Assembly (NCBI GenBank): GCA_001898035.1
Contig: MKRX01000012.1
Coordinates: forward strand, 34,758-97,679
Reading direction: 5' to 3'
Length of the DNA: 62,922 bases
Source of the DNA: Armatimonadetes bacterium 55-13
GTDB lineage: Bacteria > Armatimonadota > Fimbriimonadia > Fimbriimonadales > Fimbriimonadaceae
The translations under genes were made by a program, and so were the position numbers. The notes below the pieces were generated by a model. The model saw only the letters and a program-made list of their open reading frames with translations. It searched no databases and was not told the origin of the DNA. How positions within the stretch are numbered: position 1 is the first letter of the stretch; each line of letters begins with the position of its first letter. This document shows positions 35,959 to 43,756 of this stretch, piece after piece.

Positions 35959-36025
35959 GGCCGGTTCACCAAACCCCTGTTAGACTAGAGTTGACCACTC
36001 TAAATTCGGGGAGGATTTGCTTTCG

Positions 36026-36898
36026 ATGAAATATCGAATTTTGTTCGCCACAACATTATGCGCGTTCAGCGCTGGCGCCCATGCCATCTATGGGCATTCT
36101 CAGTTGAACGCTGCGACTTTCGACACGGTCGGGATCATGCTCGGAGGAGGGAGCGGCACCGTTATCAGCCCCCACTTCGTTCTCAGCGCCAAGCACGTAG
36201 GAGGCAATGGCTTCTTCATCAATGGCAATCTCTATAATGCGGTTCAACGATACGATCACCCAACCGCCGATATCACCCTGCTGCGGTTTGATACACCTTT
36301 TTCCAGCTACTCACTGCCCACCTTTGACGACATGATGGGCCAGGTGTTGACCTTTGTGGGCTACGGCGCAACCGCGAGCGAACGGACGAGCGGGACCAAC
36401 GCTTGGACAGGCTACGACTACCTGGGAGGCTTTGGCACTCGCCGGGCCGTGACCAATCGAATTGAGCATATGGAAGATGCCGTTTACGATATTGGCGGCA
36501 CATCTCACTCAACGGTCAGCCTTGAAGCGGATTTGGATTACTATAACCCTAACACCCCTGCTGACAGTCAGGTTGACTACTACGGAGGCGGTGGGGCAAC
36601 TGCCAACGAAGGCGGCTTGATCTTCGGAGACTCCGGCGGTGGCGCGCTCATCCAACAAAGCGGAGAATGGCGCATCGCTGGTGTCAACATCTGGATTGAC
36701 GACACTCATGGTCCCAATCCGGGAGGCAACAGCAACTATCTCGACTACGGCGATACCTTCGGAGCGACCAGCGTTCGCGCTTATCAAAACTGGATTTCCG
36801 AAATCGCGCCTGAGGCGGTGCCCGTCCCCGAGCCTGCCACATTCGCGGCTCTCAGCCTCGGTGCGATGGCCCTGTTGAGACATCGATCCAAAAAGTAA
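36026..36898 (+). CDS. Trypsin-like serine protease with PEP-CTERM sorting signal
   Basis: 290 residues from the ATG at 36026 (GGGGAGGA upstream; a TTG at 36017 is too close to it). Order: signal peptide (MKYRILFATTLCAFSAGAHA), a chymotrypsin fold with His in LSAKHVGG, Asp in HPTADITLLRFD and Ser in GDSGGGAL, then a C-terminal tail PVPEPATFAALSLGAMALLR followed by HRSKK. That tail is a PEP-CTERM signal: PEP motif, membrane helix, basic end. It should be recognised and cleaved by an exosortase in the inner membrane, with the protease sent to the cell surface. No exosortase lies in the window. Confidence 0.9.
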   Translation: MKYRILFATTLCAFSAGAHAIYGHSQLNAATFDTVGIMLGGGSGTVISPHFVLSAKHVGGNGFFINGNLYNAVQRYDHPTADITLLRFDTPFSSYSLPTFDDMMGQVLTFVGYGATASERTSGTNAWTGYDYLGGFGTRRAVTNRIEHMEDAVYDIGGTSHSTVSLEADLDYYNPNTPADSQVDYYGGGGATANEGGLIFGDSGGGALIQQSGEWRIAGVNIWIDDTHGPNPGGNSNYLDYGDTFGATSVRAYQNWISEIAPEAVPVPEPATFAALSLGAMALLRHRSKK

Positions 36899-36976: not shown

Positions 36977-38134
36977 ATGTCGAAAAAACATGTAAACGTC
37001 GGCCTCATCGGCTACCAATTCATGGGCAAGGCCCACAGCAACGCCTATCGCCAAGTAGGAAGATTCTTCCCCGAACTTCCTGTCGAAGTCCGGATGCATA
37101 CCATCTGCGGCCGAAACGAGGAGGCGGTGAAGAAGGCGAAAGACGCCTTCGGTTGGTCGCACTATGAGACCGATTGGCGCAAAGTCGTGGAGAATCCCGA
37201 GATTGACGTCATCGACATATCAACCCCCGGCAACACGCACGCCGAAATCGCGATGGCAGCGGCGGCAGCGGGGAAGGCGGTGTTCTGCGAAAAGCCCATC
37301 GGCAACACCCTTCAAGAAGCTCACGATATGCTTCAGGCTGTTCAAACCCACACCGTCCCCCACGCGGTTTTTCACAACTACCGCAAGGCGCCTGCCGTCG
37401 GATTGGCCAAGCAAATGATCGACGCAGGAGAGTTGGGGACAATCTATCACTGGCGAGCCACCTATCTTCAAGACTGGATAGCCGATCCTAACTTTCCGTT
37501 AGTCTGGAGGCTCCAGAAAGAAGTTGCGGGCAGTGGCACTCACGGCGATATCAACGCCCACATCATCGACATGGCGCGTCACCTGATAGGAGAAATCGAC
37601 GAGGTCTGCGGTCTGCTTCACACCTTCATCAAACAGCGTCCTCTCGCTGGCGAGATTGACGACAAGCTTGGTGCGAAGGCCTCCGACAAGATGGGGGAAG
37701 TCACCGTGGACGATGCCGCCATGTTCCTGGCCAAATTCAAGAATGGCGCTCTGGGCACTTTCGAAGCGTCGCGATTCGCTGTTGGACGAAAGAATTACCA
37801 CCGGTGGGAAATCAATGGCTCTAAGGGATCGCTGGTATTCAACCTTGAGCGCATGAACGAGTTGGAATATTACAACAACGACGATGCCGAGGGGCGAGAT
37901 GGGTTCCGGCTGATTCAGGCCACTGAAGCATGCCATCCATGGGCGGGTCACTATTGGCCGGTGGGACACATCATTGGCTACGAACACACGTTCATCAACC
38001 TATTGGCGGATGCATTTGCCGCCTATGCAGACGGTAGACCGATCAGCCCGAACTTCGTGGATGGATATGAGAACCAGCGAGTCTTGGACGCGGTGGAGAG
38101 AAGCCACGAAACCAGAAGCTGGATTAAGCTCTAG
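36977..38134 (+). CDS. Gfo/Idh/MocA family oxidoreductase
   Basis: 385 residues. NAD(P)-dependent sugar or inositol dehydrogenase type. N-terminal Rossmann domain with VGLIGYQFMGKAHSNAYRQV, DVIDISTPGNTHAEIAMAAA, then VFCEKPIGNTLQEAHDMLQA (the EKP catalytic motif). The C-terminal beta domain has GSGTHGDINAHIIDMARHL, the GDxxxHxxD element, with a long insert. The substrate is unknown. A ribosome site (GGAGGGCAGGA) precedes the ATG. It stands alone between a hairpin and a 350-base gap. Confidence 0.92.
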   Translation: MSKKHVNVGLIGYQFMGKAHSNAYRQVGRFFPELPVEVRMHTICGRNEEAVKKAKDAFGWSHYETDWRKVVENPEIDVIDISTPGNTHAEIAMAAAAAGKAVFCEKPIGNTLQEAHDMLQAVQTHTVPHAVFHNYRKAPAVGLAKQMIDAGELGTIYHWRATYLQDWIADPNFPLVWRLQKEVAGSGTHGDINAHIIDMARHLIGEIDEVCGLLHTFIKQRPLAGEIDDKLGAKASDKMGEVTVDDAAMFLAKFKNGALGTFEASRFAVGRKNYHRWEINGSKGSLVFNLERMNELEYYNNDDAEGRDGFRLIQATEACHPWAGHYWPVGHIIGYEHTFINLLADAFAAYADGRPISPNFVDGYENQRVLDAVERSHETRSWIKL

Positions 38135-38484: not shown

Positions 38485-41400
38485 ATGGGACGGCTAAATT
38501 GGCGGAGAGTTGGGATTTGTGCTATGTGGGCGCTGCCTTTGGCGGCTCATTCACAGACGCCTTTTAACCTCAATAACGAGGATCAAAACGCTCCTGCAAA
38601 TGTCATCGGTGGAACGCCAACCATCGATCTCATCACCGTCCGAGCCAATACCCCCGGCATTCCCCTACGCCACGGAAACGTCGTCCCCGGATCCGAGCGT
38701 GTTCAACTTCAATCCGCGATCTTGAATCGAGGAACGGATTACTCCATGGACTACGCAACTGGCGTGGTTTACGTTGCCCGAGCTCTCAAAGCGGGCGACG
38801 CGGTTACGGTTTCTTACCGCTACACCAATCAGGCAACTCAATCTTCCAGCCTGAATTTGAACGGCATCGCCGGGTTCAAATACGATATCGCTCCGGGAGC
38901 GATGAGCATGACGCTTGGTTACGGAATGACCGAGCGAACTGCAGACGGACAGGTTATCAGTACGAACCTGTTCGGCTTGAATAACAATTTCAATATTGGT
39001 GGAGGCGCGATCAAGGGTCTCTACTACTTCGGGGACCGTCAGAAGGTTGACGCCAATTCAATCTACGACCCTGTCAGCGCGCAGGGAGCGGCCGACGAAG
39101 GTCAGTCCCAGATGATTGTCCAGAGCCTGCAAACCAAGTTCATGGGTGGCAGTCTGAATGCGGACTATCAAAACATCTCTAAGAACTTCAAGTCGTTCGG
39201 CGCCGCCACCTCGGCAGGCTACAACGCAGGGCAGTTAGAGAAAGAAAGAGGCCTTACCCGCATTGGGTTTGACCTGAAAGACGTGAAGGTGGGCTCCAGC
39301 AAGATTGGGTCCATGTTTAAGACCGTAGGCGAAGGCGCGTCGGGAATCGACTGGCGATCCTACAGCTTTGCTTCCGGTGGCCTTGAACTGAATTTCAATT
39401 CGCAGCGCGTCGACAGTGACTTCACTCGCTTCGCCGACCTTGCCGAACAAGATCGCGAACAGTTGAAGAAGGAACTCGGGATGTCCCGTGAGTCCTACAG
39501 CGCCAAATTCGCCTCCAAAGCCGCGACGATGTCTTTCTCGACCGACAAGATCGAGGACATGCGGGCAGGGAATGGCCTTGAACAGCGCAAACTCGCGCTC
39601 AAGACGGGCAATATCGATCTTAATCTCGGTGAGAGATCGGTCGACAAAAGCTTTACTCGCGTGGGGAGCCTCAAAGGCGACGAGACCGCCCTCTATGGAC
39701 GAGAAGTCGGGCTCAAGCGCCAGTGGCTGTCCCTGGAAGCCGGACTGCTCGGGAAGAGCTATCAACCGATTAAGTTTTCACAATCCCTGATCGATTCCAA
39801 TAACGGCTCTTACCGCGCGCAAGATGTGAGCGTGGGTGGAAAGGGCTGGAGCTTGGAACATTCGAGCCGAACCGCCGACAAGGGATTCGCCGGATTTGCT
39901 CCTCTCGACAAGACCGAGGAAGGGAACAAGGAAATTGCCGCGATTGCGAACATGTACGGCAAGGGCCTGAAGTACAACCTGGGCAACGAGCAGAACTATT
40001 TCAAGAACTCCGCCGGTATTGGTCGTTCTTTCGACCGCCTGACCGCTGAGCCGTTCAAAGGCTGGACCTTCCAATTCGATAGCCTTCGGTTAACCGGCCA
40101 GGAGGATGGCGGTTCCGTGAACACGATCGCGCTCAACGGGAAAGACTTCAACGTCAATTACCGCAAGCAAAATCTCGGACAGAAGTTCAACGAATTCAGC
40201 TCCTTAATGGAATTCGAACGAAACCAACTTGGCGCGATTGCCGGGCTGGACCGCACGGATTTCTCGCTAAATATGAACTTGAAAGGCAGCAAACTGGCCT
40301 ACAGTCAGACAAGCGCCGATACTTCCACCGGCGGAATGTCCCGGCAGCAGTTCGCGTACAGCGATAAGAAACTTCAAGTTAGCGCCAACGCCCGTGAAGT
40401 CGATCCAGGCTTTGACAGCATCGGATCGATGGTCGATCCTGAAAAGAACATGCTCGCCGGTTTGAAAGGATTTAATGAGCATGACGTTAACGTCGCTTGG
40501 CAAATCCTGCCCAACCTGCACCTCAGCTTTACTGACTATTCGGCGGATTCAGACAGCCTCAGCCAGTTCAATCGGATTCAAAACACCGTCCTCAACTGGA
40601 AACCTTCGAAGAACACGGAAATTGGTTACGTCAAGTACAGCAATAACAGCAATGACCCGCTCAGTGTGCTGTTCGCCAACGTAACGGAAAAGATTTCTCT
40701 CGTCCAGAACCTGGGTCGCATGGGCACCTTTAAGTGGTCCGACGAGACCCAGCAGTTCGATGGCTCCAATGCGACCCAAGCTGACTTCCACCGCCAGTAT
40801 TTCTCGCTGGAAACGGCACTGGATAAGAACACCAAGGTCAAGACCGAACAGACCCGTACGAGCTACGACAATGGCGACCGTGAAAACGTGAGCGCCAACA
40901 CCGTCAGCACCAATCTCAGCAAGAGATTGGGAGTGAGCTTGACCGAAACCAAGGTCGATCGGAACGGCGATGATCGAGACGAGAGCAACCGCAACTACGG
41001 TTTCTGGTACGACCTGGGCAGCGGCGTCCAAATTGCTTACGGCTATGCTCGGCAATTGAACGGCGACAACGGCGCGACCCAACAGAATTTTAGCGTCGGT
41101 CAAACCGCGAATCTCACGAGTCCCGACAAGGCCGGTGCCACCAATCAAGCGACGATGGGCGGCATCAAGTTTGGCGGCGGATATGGTGAGCAGTCTTGGG
41201 ACGGCAGCACGGAGCGCACCCAGGCGTTCAGCAAGATGTCCATCGGAACCAGCAAGCCGTTTAAGTTCGGTTTCTTGTCCGACGTCAATCTCAACTTCGG
41301 CGTCGATACCGCGGCCGACTACAGCAAGTGGGTCCGCGAGAACAAGATGCTGGGCTTCAGTGGGAAGATTGGTTCGAACTCCCTAGGCTTCAATTATTTG

Positions 41401-42009
41401 GGCCAGATGTATACCAACGGAGTTCGTGCAGTTGACCGTACCTTCACCTTTGCAACTGATCAGTCCGACAAGCGATGGCTGCGCGCGAGCATTTTCTACA
41501 AAGCCCGAACGCTGCCTTACGGCGATCAGGTGATGATCCGCAATTTCAACGTCACCGCCAAGCCCTCAAAGAATGTCGAATTGACTCACCAACTGGTGAC
41601 CAATCCTGAAGTCGCAAAGGGTGACGCGATTCTGGGTTCCATCCCTCAAGCAGCCCGTAGCAGTTCCTGGAAGCTCGATTACAAGAACTCCGGCTACTTC
41701 ACCGTTGGCGGGGAGTGGAAGGAGATGGTCAATGAGCAGAACAATGCGCTTTCAAGAACAGGCAGCATCAACGTAACCTTGTTCGAAAAGTCGGGCTCAC
41801 CCCTCAAGCTTTCCTATGGACTGGAAGAAGTAAATGGCAATGTCAAACGACGTGTCGCCAACCGCTACAGCCTCCAGTTCGACCAGAAAGCTGGTCCTAA
41901 TCAGACGTTCAGCTTCTTTGCCGGCAATCTCAACTATATGTACGATATCGCCGACGGGTTCAAGAAGAACAACTGGACTCTGCGAATGGATTACCAGCTC
42001 CGGTTCTAG
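38485..42009 (+). CDS. Giant outer-membrane beta-barrel-like protein with internal repeats
   Basis: 1174 residues. It starts with a signal peptide (MGRLNWRRVGICAMWALPLA, cut near AHSQ). Residues of about 62-115 (PGSERVQLQSAILNRGTDYS, then MDYATGVVYVARALKAGDAV) form a known beta module in OM proteins. From about 230 to 665 a unit of about 77 residues recurs at least six times, built from strands plus a helix of pattern x-F-x-x-h-x-x-L-x(4-6)-E-x(3)-L-x(4)-G; examples are SDFTRFADLAEQDREQLKKE, KSFTRVGSLKGDETALYGRE and QKFNEFSSLMEFERNQLGAI. The last 500 residues are strand-rich, and the C-terminus ends DYQLRF with a terminal Phe, as in beta-barrels. Function unknown. Confidence 0.8.
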   Translation: MGRLNWRRVGICAMWALPLAAHSQTPFNLNNEDQNAPANVIGGTPTIDLITVRANTPGIPLRHGNVVPGSERVQLQSAILNRGTDYSMDYATGVVYVARALKAGDAVTVSYRYTNQATQSSSLNLNGIAGFKYDIAPGAMSMTLGYGMTERTADGQVISTNLFGLNNNFNIGGGAIKGLYYFGDRQKVDANSIYDPVSAQGAADEGQSQMIVQSLQTKFMGGSLNADYQNISKNFKSFGAATSAGYNAGQLEKERGLTRIGFDLKDVKVGSSKIGSMFKTVGEGASGIDWRSYSFASGGLELNFNSQRVDSDFTRFADLAEQDREQLKKELGMSRESYSAKFASKAATMSFSTDKIEDMRAGNGLEQRKLALKTGNIDLNLGERSVDKSFTRVGSLKGDETALYGREVGLKRQWLSLEAGLLGKSYQPIKFSQSLIDSNNGSYRAQDVSVGGKGWSLEHSSRTADKGFAGFAPLDKTEEGNKEIAAIANMYGKGLKYNLGNEQNYFKNSAGIGRSFDRLTAEPFKGWTFQFDSLRLTGQEDGGSVNTIALNGKDFNVNYRKQNLGQKFNEFSSLMEFERNQLGAIAGLDRTDFSLNMNLKGSKLAYSQTSADTSTGGMSRQQFAYSDKKLQVSANAREVDPGFDSIGSMVDPEKNMLAGLKGFNEHDVNVAWQILPNLHLSFTDYSADSDSLSQFNRIQNTVLNWKPSKNTEIGYVKYSNNSNDPLSVLFANVTEKISLVQNLGRMGTFKWSDETQQFDGSNATQADFHRQYFSLETALDKNTKVKTEQTRTSYDNGDRENVSANTVSTNLSKRLGVSLTETKVDRNGDDRDESNRNYGFWYDLGSGVQIAYGYARQLNGDNGATQQNFSVGQTANLTSPDKAGATNQATMGGIKFGGGYGEQSWDGSTERTQAFSKMSIGTSKPFKFGFLSDVNLNFGVDTAADYSKWVRENKMLGFSGKIGSNSLGFNYLGQMYTNGVRAVDRTFTFATDQSDKRWLRASIFYKARTLPYGDQVMIRNFNVTAKPSKNVELTHQLVTNPEVAKGDAILGSIPQAARSSSWKLDYKNSGYFTVGGEWKEMVNEQNNALSRTGSINVTLFEKSGSPLKLSYGLEEVNGNVKRRVANRYSLQFDQKAGPNQTFSFFAGNLNYMYDIADGFKKNNWTLRMDYQLRF

Positions 42010-42029: not shown

Positions 42030-42935
42030 ATGGAAATCGTCTCCTATGGCGGCTGGGAGCGCTGTGCGCGCATCCAAGCCGGCTCGACCGAAGCTCTCGT
42101 AACTCTTGAAGTTGGCCCCCGAATCATCCGCTACGGCCTGATTGGCGGCCCGAATGAACTGGTCGAGTTTCCCACTGAAATGGGGAAGACGGGGGGCGAT
42201 GAATACCGCAGCTACGGTGGTCACCGGCTCTGGATTTCTCCGGAAGAAGATCCCAAGACGTTCCATGCGGACAATCATCCGGTCGACTATCGGATTGAAG
42301 AGGGTTGGCACATCTTTACCGCGCCCTTGGAGAAGTGGCTAGTCCAAAAGGAAATCCGCGTTAAGCCGGACGGAGATCGACTTCTCATCGAGCACCGCAT
42401 TTACAACCATGGTGTCTACGATGCCACGCTGGCCCCTTGGTCCCTTACCGTGATGGCCGCTGGGGGAACCTGCATCTTTCCGCAACCCGCCCACATCCCG
42501 CATACAGAGAAAGTACTGCCCGCCCGCCCGCTCGTGCTTTGGAACTACACCGATATGAGCGATCCCCGGTGGATCTGGGGCAAGGCGTTGATTCGATTGG
42601 AACAGCACGCTGACAAAGGGCCACAAAAAATTGGCGCTTTTGTCGATCAGGGCTGGGCCGCCTACGCCAACCATGGCAATGTCTTCATTAAGCGCTTTGA
42701 TGCATCCAGCGAACCCACCGCATATGCCGACTACGGTTGTAACTTCGAGACATTCACGCGTCAGGACATGCTTGAAGTGGAAACGCTTAGCCCTCTTCAA
42801 GCCATTCCCTATCAGGGATTCGCGTCGCATTGGGAGTCTTGGTATCTAATCCCCGACGTCGACATCCCCCAGGAAGATGCGCTAGCCGAGAAGTGGTTCG
42901 AGCAACTTCTGTCCAGCCGTCCCCTCGTAAAGTAG
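42030..42935 (+). CDS. DUF4380/galactose-mutarotase-like protein
   Basis: 301 residues, no signal peptide, beta-rich. The start EIVSYGGWERCARIQAGSTE, the VTLEVGPRIIRYGLIGGPNE strand pair, YGGHRLWISPEEDPKTFHAD, WSLTVMAAGGTCIFPQP and a closing EVETLSPLQAIPYQGFASHW region follow the supersandwich of galactose-mutarotase-like proteins (DUF4380). It probably binds a carbohydrate; catalytic residues cannot be assigned. It directly follows the repeat protein gene but has its own TAAGCT element. Confidence 0.75.
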   Translation: MEIVSYGGWERCARIQAGSTEALVTLEVGPRIIRYGLIGGPNELVEFPTEMGKTGGDEYRSYGGHRLWISPEEDPKTFHADNHPVDYRIEEGWHIFTAPLEKWLVQKEIRVKPDGDRLLIEHRIYNHGVYDATLAPWSLTVMAAGGTCIFPQPAHIPHTEKVLPARPLVLWNYTDMSDPRWIWGKALIRLEQHADKGPQKIGAFVDQGWAAYANHGNVFIKRFDASSEPTAYADYGCNFETFTRQDMLEVETLSPLQAIPYQGFASHWESWYLIPDVDIPQEDALAEKWFEQLLSSRPLVK

Positions 42936-42997: not shown

Positions 42998-43756
42998 ATG
43001 CGGTCAGACATTTTGCAGGTGGTGGCAATCTGTTGCCAAGGAAATGCGTTTTTGACGGGAGAGTCTGCGGGACGCCTGTCGGAACCTTTAGCGGTGATTG
43101 AACTCGTTCAGGACAATCACGAAGTCGCCTTCTTTCGCACAGGAAGTATGAACGTCCATAGTGGTTGCCTGGCCATTGGCATCCGCCCATGGCTTTCTCG
43201 ACTCAAGAAAGAGGGCGTCGATCATTTAAGGGTTTCGCTCGGCAAGTGCGCACCGCAGACGCGTCCCAAGGAGGATTGCGGTTGGGGAGTGATGTCGGAT
43301 GGCGATGTCGGCGTCGAACTCTGGCAGCCGCTTTGGAAGGGCTGCCCAGACCGTCAAACCGGACGAGCATCTTGCCGGATCAGCTATTCGTCATCCCGTT
43401 TCGCTCGTTGGCAAGTCGCCCGAATCGATTCTCAGGCGGAAGTTGCCGACGATCTTCGGACCGTCATCGATGAGGCAATTCAGACCTGCATCGAGCAGAA
43501 CCTCAAACAGACATTCGAGCAGATTCGCGATATGGCCAAGGATGCCACTACTTGGGCTGACCGGTTTTATCCCCTTTCTGCAGACCCTCTTCTTCGCCAA
43601 ACCCTCAAGAACGCCATGATTGCCATGGTATTGGTTGAGGAAGGGGAATGGTCCAAGGCGAAAATTGACTGCACGGACCTTGTCTCCAGGCTCTGGACGG
43701 CGGCAATGGCGGGGCTGGAGGCGGCGTGCCTACCCTCCGCGCTTCTTGTCCATTAA
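42998..43756 (+). CDS. Protein of unknown function, possibly cytosolic
   Basis: 252 residues. The ATG at 42998 has GGAG four bases upstream. The N-terminal half is mixed alpha/beta (LAVIELVQDNHEVAFFRTGS, CLAIGIRPWLSRLKKEGVDH). The C-terminal half is helical, with a long stretch ADDLRTVIDEAIQTCIEQNL and a hydrophobic helix LKNAMIAMVLVEEGEWSKAK. Seven or more cysteines are present. I recognise no family. The stop lies 27 bases inside the end of the convergent gene. An open frame this long with balanced composition makes it likely real. Confidence 0.55.
   Translation: MRSDILQVVAICCQGNAFLTGESAGRLSEPLAVIELVQDNHEVAFFRTGSMNVHSGCLAIGIRPWLSRLKKEGVDHLRVSLGKCAPQTRPKEDCGWGVMSDGDVGVELWQPLWKGCPDRQTGRASCRISYSSSRFARWQVARIDSQAEVADDLRTVIDEAIQTCIEQNLKQTFEQIRDMAKDATTWADRFYPLSADPLLRQTLKNAMIAMVLVEEGEWSKAKIDCTDLVSRLWTAAMAGLEAACLPSALLVH

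Follow-up and report, generated by a model that had tools for sequence, protein, structure and literature searches.

SprA is the translocon of the Type 9 secretion system. It forms a 36-strand barrel, approximately 7 nm wide, which is capped on the outside and has a periplasmic opening (PMC7463736, PMC10994853), and among the outer-membrane barrel structures identified it has been described as the largest (PMC7463736). Other described proteins with which the present locus may be compared are LptD, a large outer-membrane barrel of 26 strands; SlpA of Deinococcus, a 30-strand barrel of another deep-branching diderm phylum, whose SLH and coiled-coil parts tie it to the wall; and ApoB-100, an animal lipid-particle protein built on a long antiparallel amphipathic sheet with inserts.

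In the current study, we analysed a giant protein encoded in a 62,922-nucleotide stretch of DNA from Armatimonadetes bacterium 55-13 (contig MKRX01000012.1; this whole stretch is termed the window), and we propose, with a probability of roughly 40%, that it constitutes a giant SprA-like outer-membrane conduit for large cargo. Pfam and NCBIfam searches with the window protein and 36 family members yielded no name for it, and in the literature on Fimbriimonas or Armatimonadota outer membranes nothing was found on a giant-barrel family. The gene and the main parts of its product are the following:

38485..42009, + strand: giant outer-membrane beta protein of 1174 aa (open reading frame; family search in the phylum sample)
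38485..38553, + strand: signal peptide, residues 1-23 (sequence reading: RRVGICAMWALPLAAHS, cut before Q)
38608..38832, + strand: N-terminal SprA-like module, residues 42-116 (PDB profile search; NCBIfam surface_SprA matches)
38902..42000, + strand: 54 predicted membrane-length beta strands, residues 140-1172 (AlphaFold2; strand and loop lengths; alternating hydrophobicity)
41968..42006, + strand: C-terminal strand with a beta-signal-like end, NWTLRMDYQLRF (terminal Phe; hydrophobic pattern)

Both ends of the protein are those of a BAM client, namely a signal peptide and a C-terminal beta-signal strand (sequence reading, terminal Phe and hydrophobic alternation), the eight-residue consensus of the latter having been published (PMC10945584). 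The mature protein starts at Gln24, a residue kept in 58 of 60 members of the family alignment, and the last barrel strand is hydrophobic at positions -1, -3, -5, -7 and -9 throughout the family. An earlier note on this DNA had described a giant protein of outer-membrane type whose terminal DYQLRF would fit a surface beta barrel; this description holds, the 1174-residue protein being exported and modelled by AlphaFold2 as beta strands with a regular helical insert per unit, and the C-terminal Phe being conserved in 56 of 64 members.

Relatives of the window protein are found in Fimbriimonadaceae and in other Armatimonadota. Among 251 sampled Armatimonadota genomes, a single-sequence search located the protein in 155, while a profile of 36 members detected the protein or its N-terminal module in 227, including 170 of the 179 good genomes; the weaker profile matches, among them those in many distant genomes, span mainly the N-terminal module and may represent related barrels. 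Judged from these searches, the family, which is unnamed, is almost phylum-wide in Armatimonadota. Among the matches listed there is one full-length match per genome, and this, together with the broad conservation, argues for a core role rather than that of a niche receptor.

The N-terminal half of the protein is built from six repeats, whose conserved Phe residues lie at positions 235, 313, 390, 468, 568 and 643 in the 64-member alignment (Phe-to-Phe spacings of 78, 77, 78, 100 and 75) and are followed in most copies by conserved Glu, Gly and Arg residues. The units are:

39148..39381, + strand: repeat unit 1, residues 222-299, helical loop 232-257 (HMM, shuffles, AlphaFold2)
39382..39612, + strand: repeat unit 2, residues 300-376, helical loop 310-332 (HMM, shuffles, AlphaFold2)
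39613..39846, + strand: repeat unit 3, residues 377-454, helical loop 387-410 (HMM, shuffles, AlphaFold2)
39847..40146, + strand: repeat unit 4, residues 455-554, enlarged two-helix loop 465-512 (HMM, AlphaFold2)
40147..40371, + strand: repeat unit 5, residues 555-629, helical loop 565-588 (HMM, shuffles, AlphaFold2)
40372..40602, + strand: repeat unit 6, residues 630-706, helical loop 640-663 (HMM, shuffles, AlphaFold2)

Profile HMMs of one repeat recover other copies in the window protein with E-values down to 1.5e-15, although the alignment behind these HMMs may have put some repeats out of register. In a single-sequence comparison the copy pairs 1-2, 2-3, 2-5, 3-5 and 5-6 score above all 300 shuffles, the pair 4-5 being discounted as its cut segments overlap. 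The six repeats thus exceed chance and are real. The earlier note had placed at least six copies at residues 233, 311, 388, 467, 567 and 641, each of which proved to lie no more than two residues from a conserved Phe, and the regular helical insert that it expected in every unit is seen in the AlphaFold2 model, which repeats regularly. Its strand-strand-helix unit was correct as to the repeat and the helix and has to be amended as to the number and order of its strands, the unit in the model being strand-helix-strand-strand-strand, with four membrane-length strands. The partial copy suggested near residue 514 was rejected: it scores -3.3 bits with the repeat HMM, and the 100-residue spacing is instead explained by the loop of unit 4, which is 48 residues long and contains two helices. 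In the family alignment, few parts of the protein are more strongly conserved than the helical loops. Repetition is confined to the N-terminal half, residues from approximately 700 to 1174 being modelled as a plain strand meander.

AlphaFold2 modelling of the whole protein, using an alignment of 44 homologues, gave a mean pLDDT of 84 and a pTM of 0.50, and the repeat half modelled alone gave 93.5 and 0.84, respectively. The model contains 54 membrane-length strands, an even number, with a mean length of 11.8 residues, and in the family average these mostly alternate hydrophobic and polar faces. Connections assigned to the outside average 10.8 residues versus 4.0 for those assigned to the periplasm (permutation p 0.001), a difference to which the placement of every helical loop on the same side contributes. 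Since both ends are placed in the periplasm, the connections assigned to the outside are the longer ones and the C-terminal Phe is conserved, the predicted topology has the helices at the cell surface and the N-terminal module in the periplasm. A closed single barrel is considered likely, and by the standard formula 54 strands would give it a width of approximately 10 nm. Of the beta barrel suggested in the earlier note, the meander of membrane-length strands is therefore borne out by the model, while closure is less well served by the whole-model pTM and by covariation, in which adjacent strands have a median z of 2.5 and strands 1 and 54 show no coupling (approximately 80 effective sequences, which is weak either way).

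The N-terminal module (residues 42-116) has the pattern G-S-E-x-V...L-x-x-G-x-D-Y-x-x-D-Y-x-x-G. When its profile was compared with the whole PDB, the best match was SprA (6h3i, E 8.9e-6, chain residues 686-732), with phage tail and surface proteins ranking next; the PGSERVQL module singled out in the earlier note is real, conserved and common to SprA. NCBIfam surface_SprA (TIGR04189) matches six of the 36 members with E-values down to 2e-6, these matches spanning approximately 40 residues of the module at 17-20.5 bits against a cut-off of 200 in the members examined; related Armatimonadota barrels match the same model better, up to 2e-10. By these profile comparisons the module is common to SprA, yet the window protein is not a member of the SprA family. 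Phage tail and cell-surface proteins contain this module too, so that its presence alone reveals little on function. A Pfam DUF2460 (phage) match at residues 67-114 does not mark a phage protein, being below cut-off and confined to the shared module, and no family match was obtained in phages and plasmids. The window's genome also encodes a second barrel-like outer-membrane protein with a SprA-like module, of approximately 858 aa (G000:C6:940685-941011), which matches surface_SprA at 2e-10, far below the cut-off; proteins similar to it are present in other Armatimonadota.

The window protein resembles SprA/Sov in that it would form a giant single-chain outer-membrane beta barrel, and it differs in having 54 predicted strands within 1174 aa, compared with 36 strands in approximately 2400 aa for SprA. 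SprA_N (Pfam PF14349) was not matched by the window protein at E <= 1 or by any of the 36 members at E <= 0.1. Other Type 9 components were also not found, SprA_N being detected in none of 11 genomes and the companion motor GldL above its cut-off in none of 21, in searches whose control genomes likewise gave no match. We know of no counterpart in SprA to the four-strand repeats with a helical loop.

When the whole model was compared with known structures using Foldseek, SprA ranked first by E-value (E 4e-7, a loose alignment with a TM score of 0.12), followed by ApoB-100 (ranks 2-3) and LptD, all TM scores being low; the repeat half matched LptD and SlpA, and a viral structure library gave no informative match. 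The conduit reading is supported by SprA being the best match twice independently, once for the whole fold by E-value and once for the module by sequence. The confidently modelled strand meander, the even strand number, the loop-length asymmetry, the two-faced strands and the broad conservation also speak for it; the low whole-model pTM, the uncoupled end strands, the better superposition of the repeat half on an open belt than on most small barrels and the Type 9 components looked for and not found speak against it. On this reading the protein would be exported by Sec by means of its signal peptide, and BAM, whose BamA is present, would insert it by way of the C-terminal Phe strand. The small SprA-like module would then lie in the periplasm and some 54 strands would weave through the membrane, including six four-strand units, each with a conserved outer helical loop; these loops would probably cover the pore mouth like a cap, and large cargo would enter from the periplasm and exit under or beside the cap, as in SprA. 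The transport role is put forward by analogy, from the fold, the module and the conservation.

A somewhat unlikely alternative is that the protein is a giant barrel with a structural or general-diffusion function. It would then be an abundant outer-membrane scaffold or porin, comparable to SlpA of Deinococcus, and would organise the envelope without exporting specific cargo. This alternative would suit a widely conserved protein with usually one full-length copy per genome among the matches listed, and SlpA, itself a large barrel of a deep-branching phylum, appears in the fold matches of both the whole model and the repeat half; one of the 36 members matches the Pfam barrel domain SlpA_C, at 4.9e-6. 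The other 35 members, however, have no such match, nor does the window protein, in which neither an SLH domain nor a coiled coil before the barrel was seen (Pfam, model), and the helical loops seem more conserved than a plain scaffold would need.

Quite unlikely, in our estimation, is an open amphipathic beta-belt on or around lipid, as in ApoB-100, in place of a closed transmembrane barrel. Its attraction lies in the Foldseek ranks of ApoB-100 with the whole model, in the low whole-model pTM, in the end strands without covariation and in the superpositions: the repeat half fits the open belt of ApoB-100 at 5.3 A over 332 residues, the best-fitting superposition, versus 13-22 A rmsd on most small barrels and 7.6 A over 226 residues on one LptD chain. 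A very wide barrel of approximately 10 nm would, however, also seem nearly flat over 20 strands, and these fold comparisons can be accounted for by either a wide barrel or an open belt. The conserved Phe-capped final strand and the even strand number fit BAM-inserted barrels, and ApoB-100 shows no sequence relation to the window protein and has no membrane-spanning barrel.

The envelope in which the protein would reside was examined in a subset of genomes. BamA-type Omp85 and LptF/G are encoded in all 17 genomes tested and LpxC in 15 of the 17. The 1.5-Mb genomes G177 and G181, which belong to the window's family, lack both LpxC and the giant barrel and keep BamA and LptF/G; this joint absence probably reflects a single event, the two reduced genomes being related. 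LptD was considered as an identity for the giant barrel because the family is phylum-wide, because LptD Pfam matches were lacking (PF04453 and PF19838 had none in the window's genome, nor had the window protein an LptD match) and because of the gene content of G177 and G181. This candidate is ruled out, as a separate LptD-like protein is encoded after LptF both in the window's genome and in G177:

L176:8018-11394: LptF, then the LptD-like protein, with a weak Pfam DUF3769 match

This LptD-like protein lies beyond the reach of the LptD models. The giant barrel would share with LptD the nature of a large outer-membrane barrel; LptD is among its top fold matches, and it differs from LptD in strand number and in that a separate LptD-like protein is encoded next to LptF.

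The genes flanking the barrel gene in the window are:

36977..38134, + strand: GFO/IDH/MocA oxidoreductase, upstream, lineage-specific (Pfam)
42030..42935, + strand: mutarotase-like protein, 20 nt downstream of the barrel gene (NCBIfam TTE1925 mutarotase, E 9.9e-79, below its cut-off)

In 21 loci the mutarotase-like gene is kept as the same-strand neighbour at +1, and in 18 an oxidoreductase relative lies at -1 or -2, also on the same strand. An uptake receptor or channel for a large nutrient, tied to sugar use through these Fimbriimonadaceae neighbours, would account for such linkage and is nonetheless very unlikely, as the sugar-type neighbours are limited to part of the family's range, with a zf-HC2 partner and other flanks elsewhere, and as Pfam found no TonB-dependent plug in the window protein. 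Two genes upstream of the barrel gene, at 36017-36898 (+) of the window, lies a gene for a trypsin-like protease with a PEP-CTERM sorting signal, and 3' of the mutarotase-like gene, at 42998-43756 (+), is a 252-aa open reading frame for which Pfam and NCBIfam gave no clear match.

In 21 more distant loci, a gene for a zf-HC2 protein, a putative zinc finger of anti-sigma type (Pfam match in those tested), stands directly upstream of the barrel gene; beside the window's gene this partner is absent. Examples are:

L043:9589-10437, - strand: zf-HC2 inner-membrane protein
L046:4837-5715, + strand: zf-HC2 inner-membrane protein
L061:6071-7087, - strand: zf-HC2 inner-membrane protein

Most of these neighbours have a hydrophobic segment, and they possess a conserved C-terminal strand ending in Phe. 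When relatives without cysteines are included, the upstream neighbours number 29, of which 24 have Phe or Tyr as the last residue, as against one of 26 other zf-HC2 proteins in the same genome set; a median of 36 nt separates the neighbour from the barrel gene. The tail is hydrophobic at -10, -8, -6, -5 and -1, a phase that differs from the -9, -7, -5, -3, -1 of the barrel's last strand, and it is therefore beta-signal-like and not a canonical signal. No ECF sigma gene was present among the few upstream genes tested. The zf-HC2 protein may be a sensor that spans the periplasm and monitors the barrel or BAM.

Taking the conduit reading further, one may picture a closed single-chain barrel of some 54 strands and 10 nm, the largest known, acting as the translocon of an undescribed Armatimonadota secretion system and served outside Fimbriimonadaceae, in most lineages, by a zf-HC2 inner-membrane partner, whose Phe-ended strand would dock on the barrel or BAM and report the state of export or assembly to the cytoplasm; taken as a whole, this picture is speculative and unlikely. 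Should the zf-HC2 tail indeed dock in this manner, it would represent a new route for signalling across the periplasm. If true, a conserved 54-strand protein would raise the upper size limit known for BAM-built barrels by half, from the 36 strands of SprA, and it would amount to a new type of export gate or else to a new way of building an outer membrane. The family belongs to a poorly studied phylum, the Armatimonadota, for which it may provide an unusually wide export gate.
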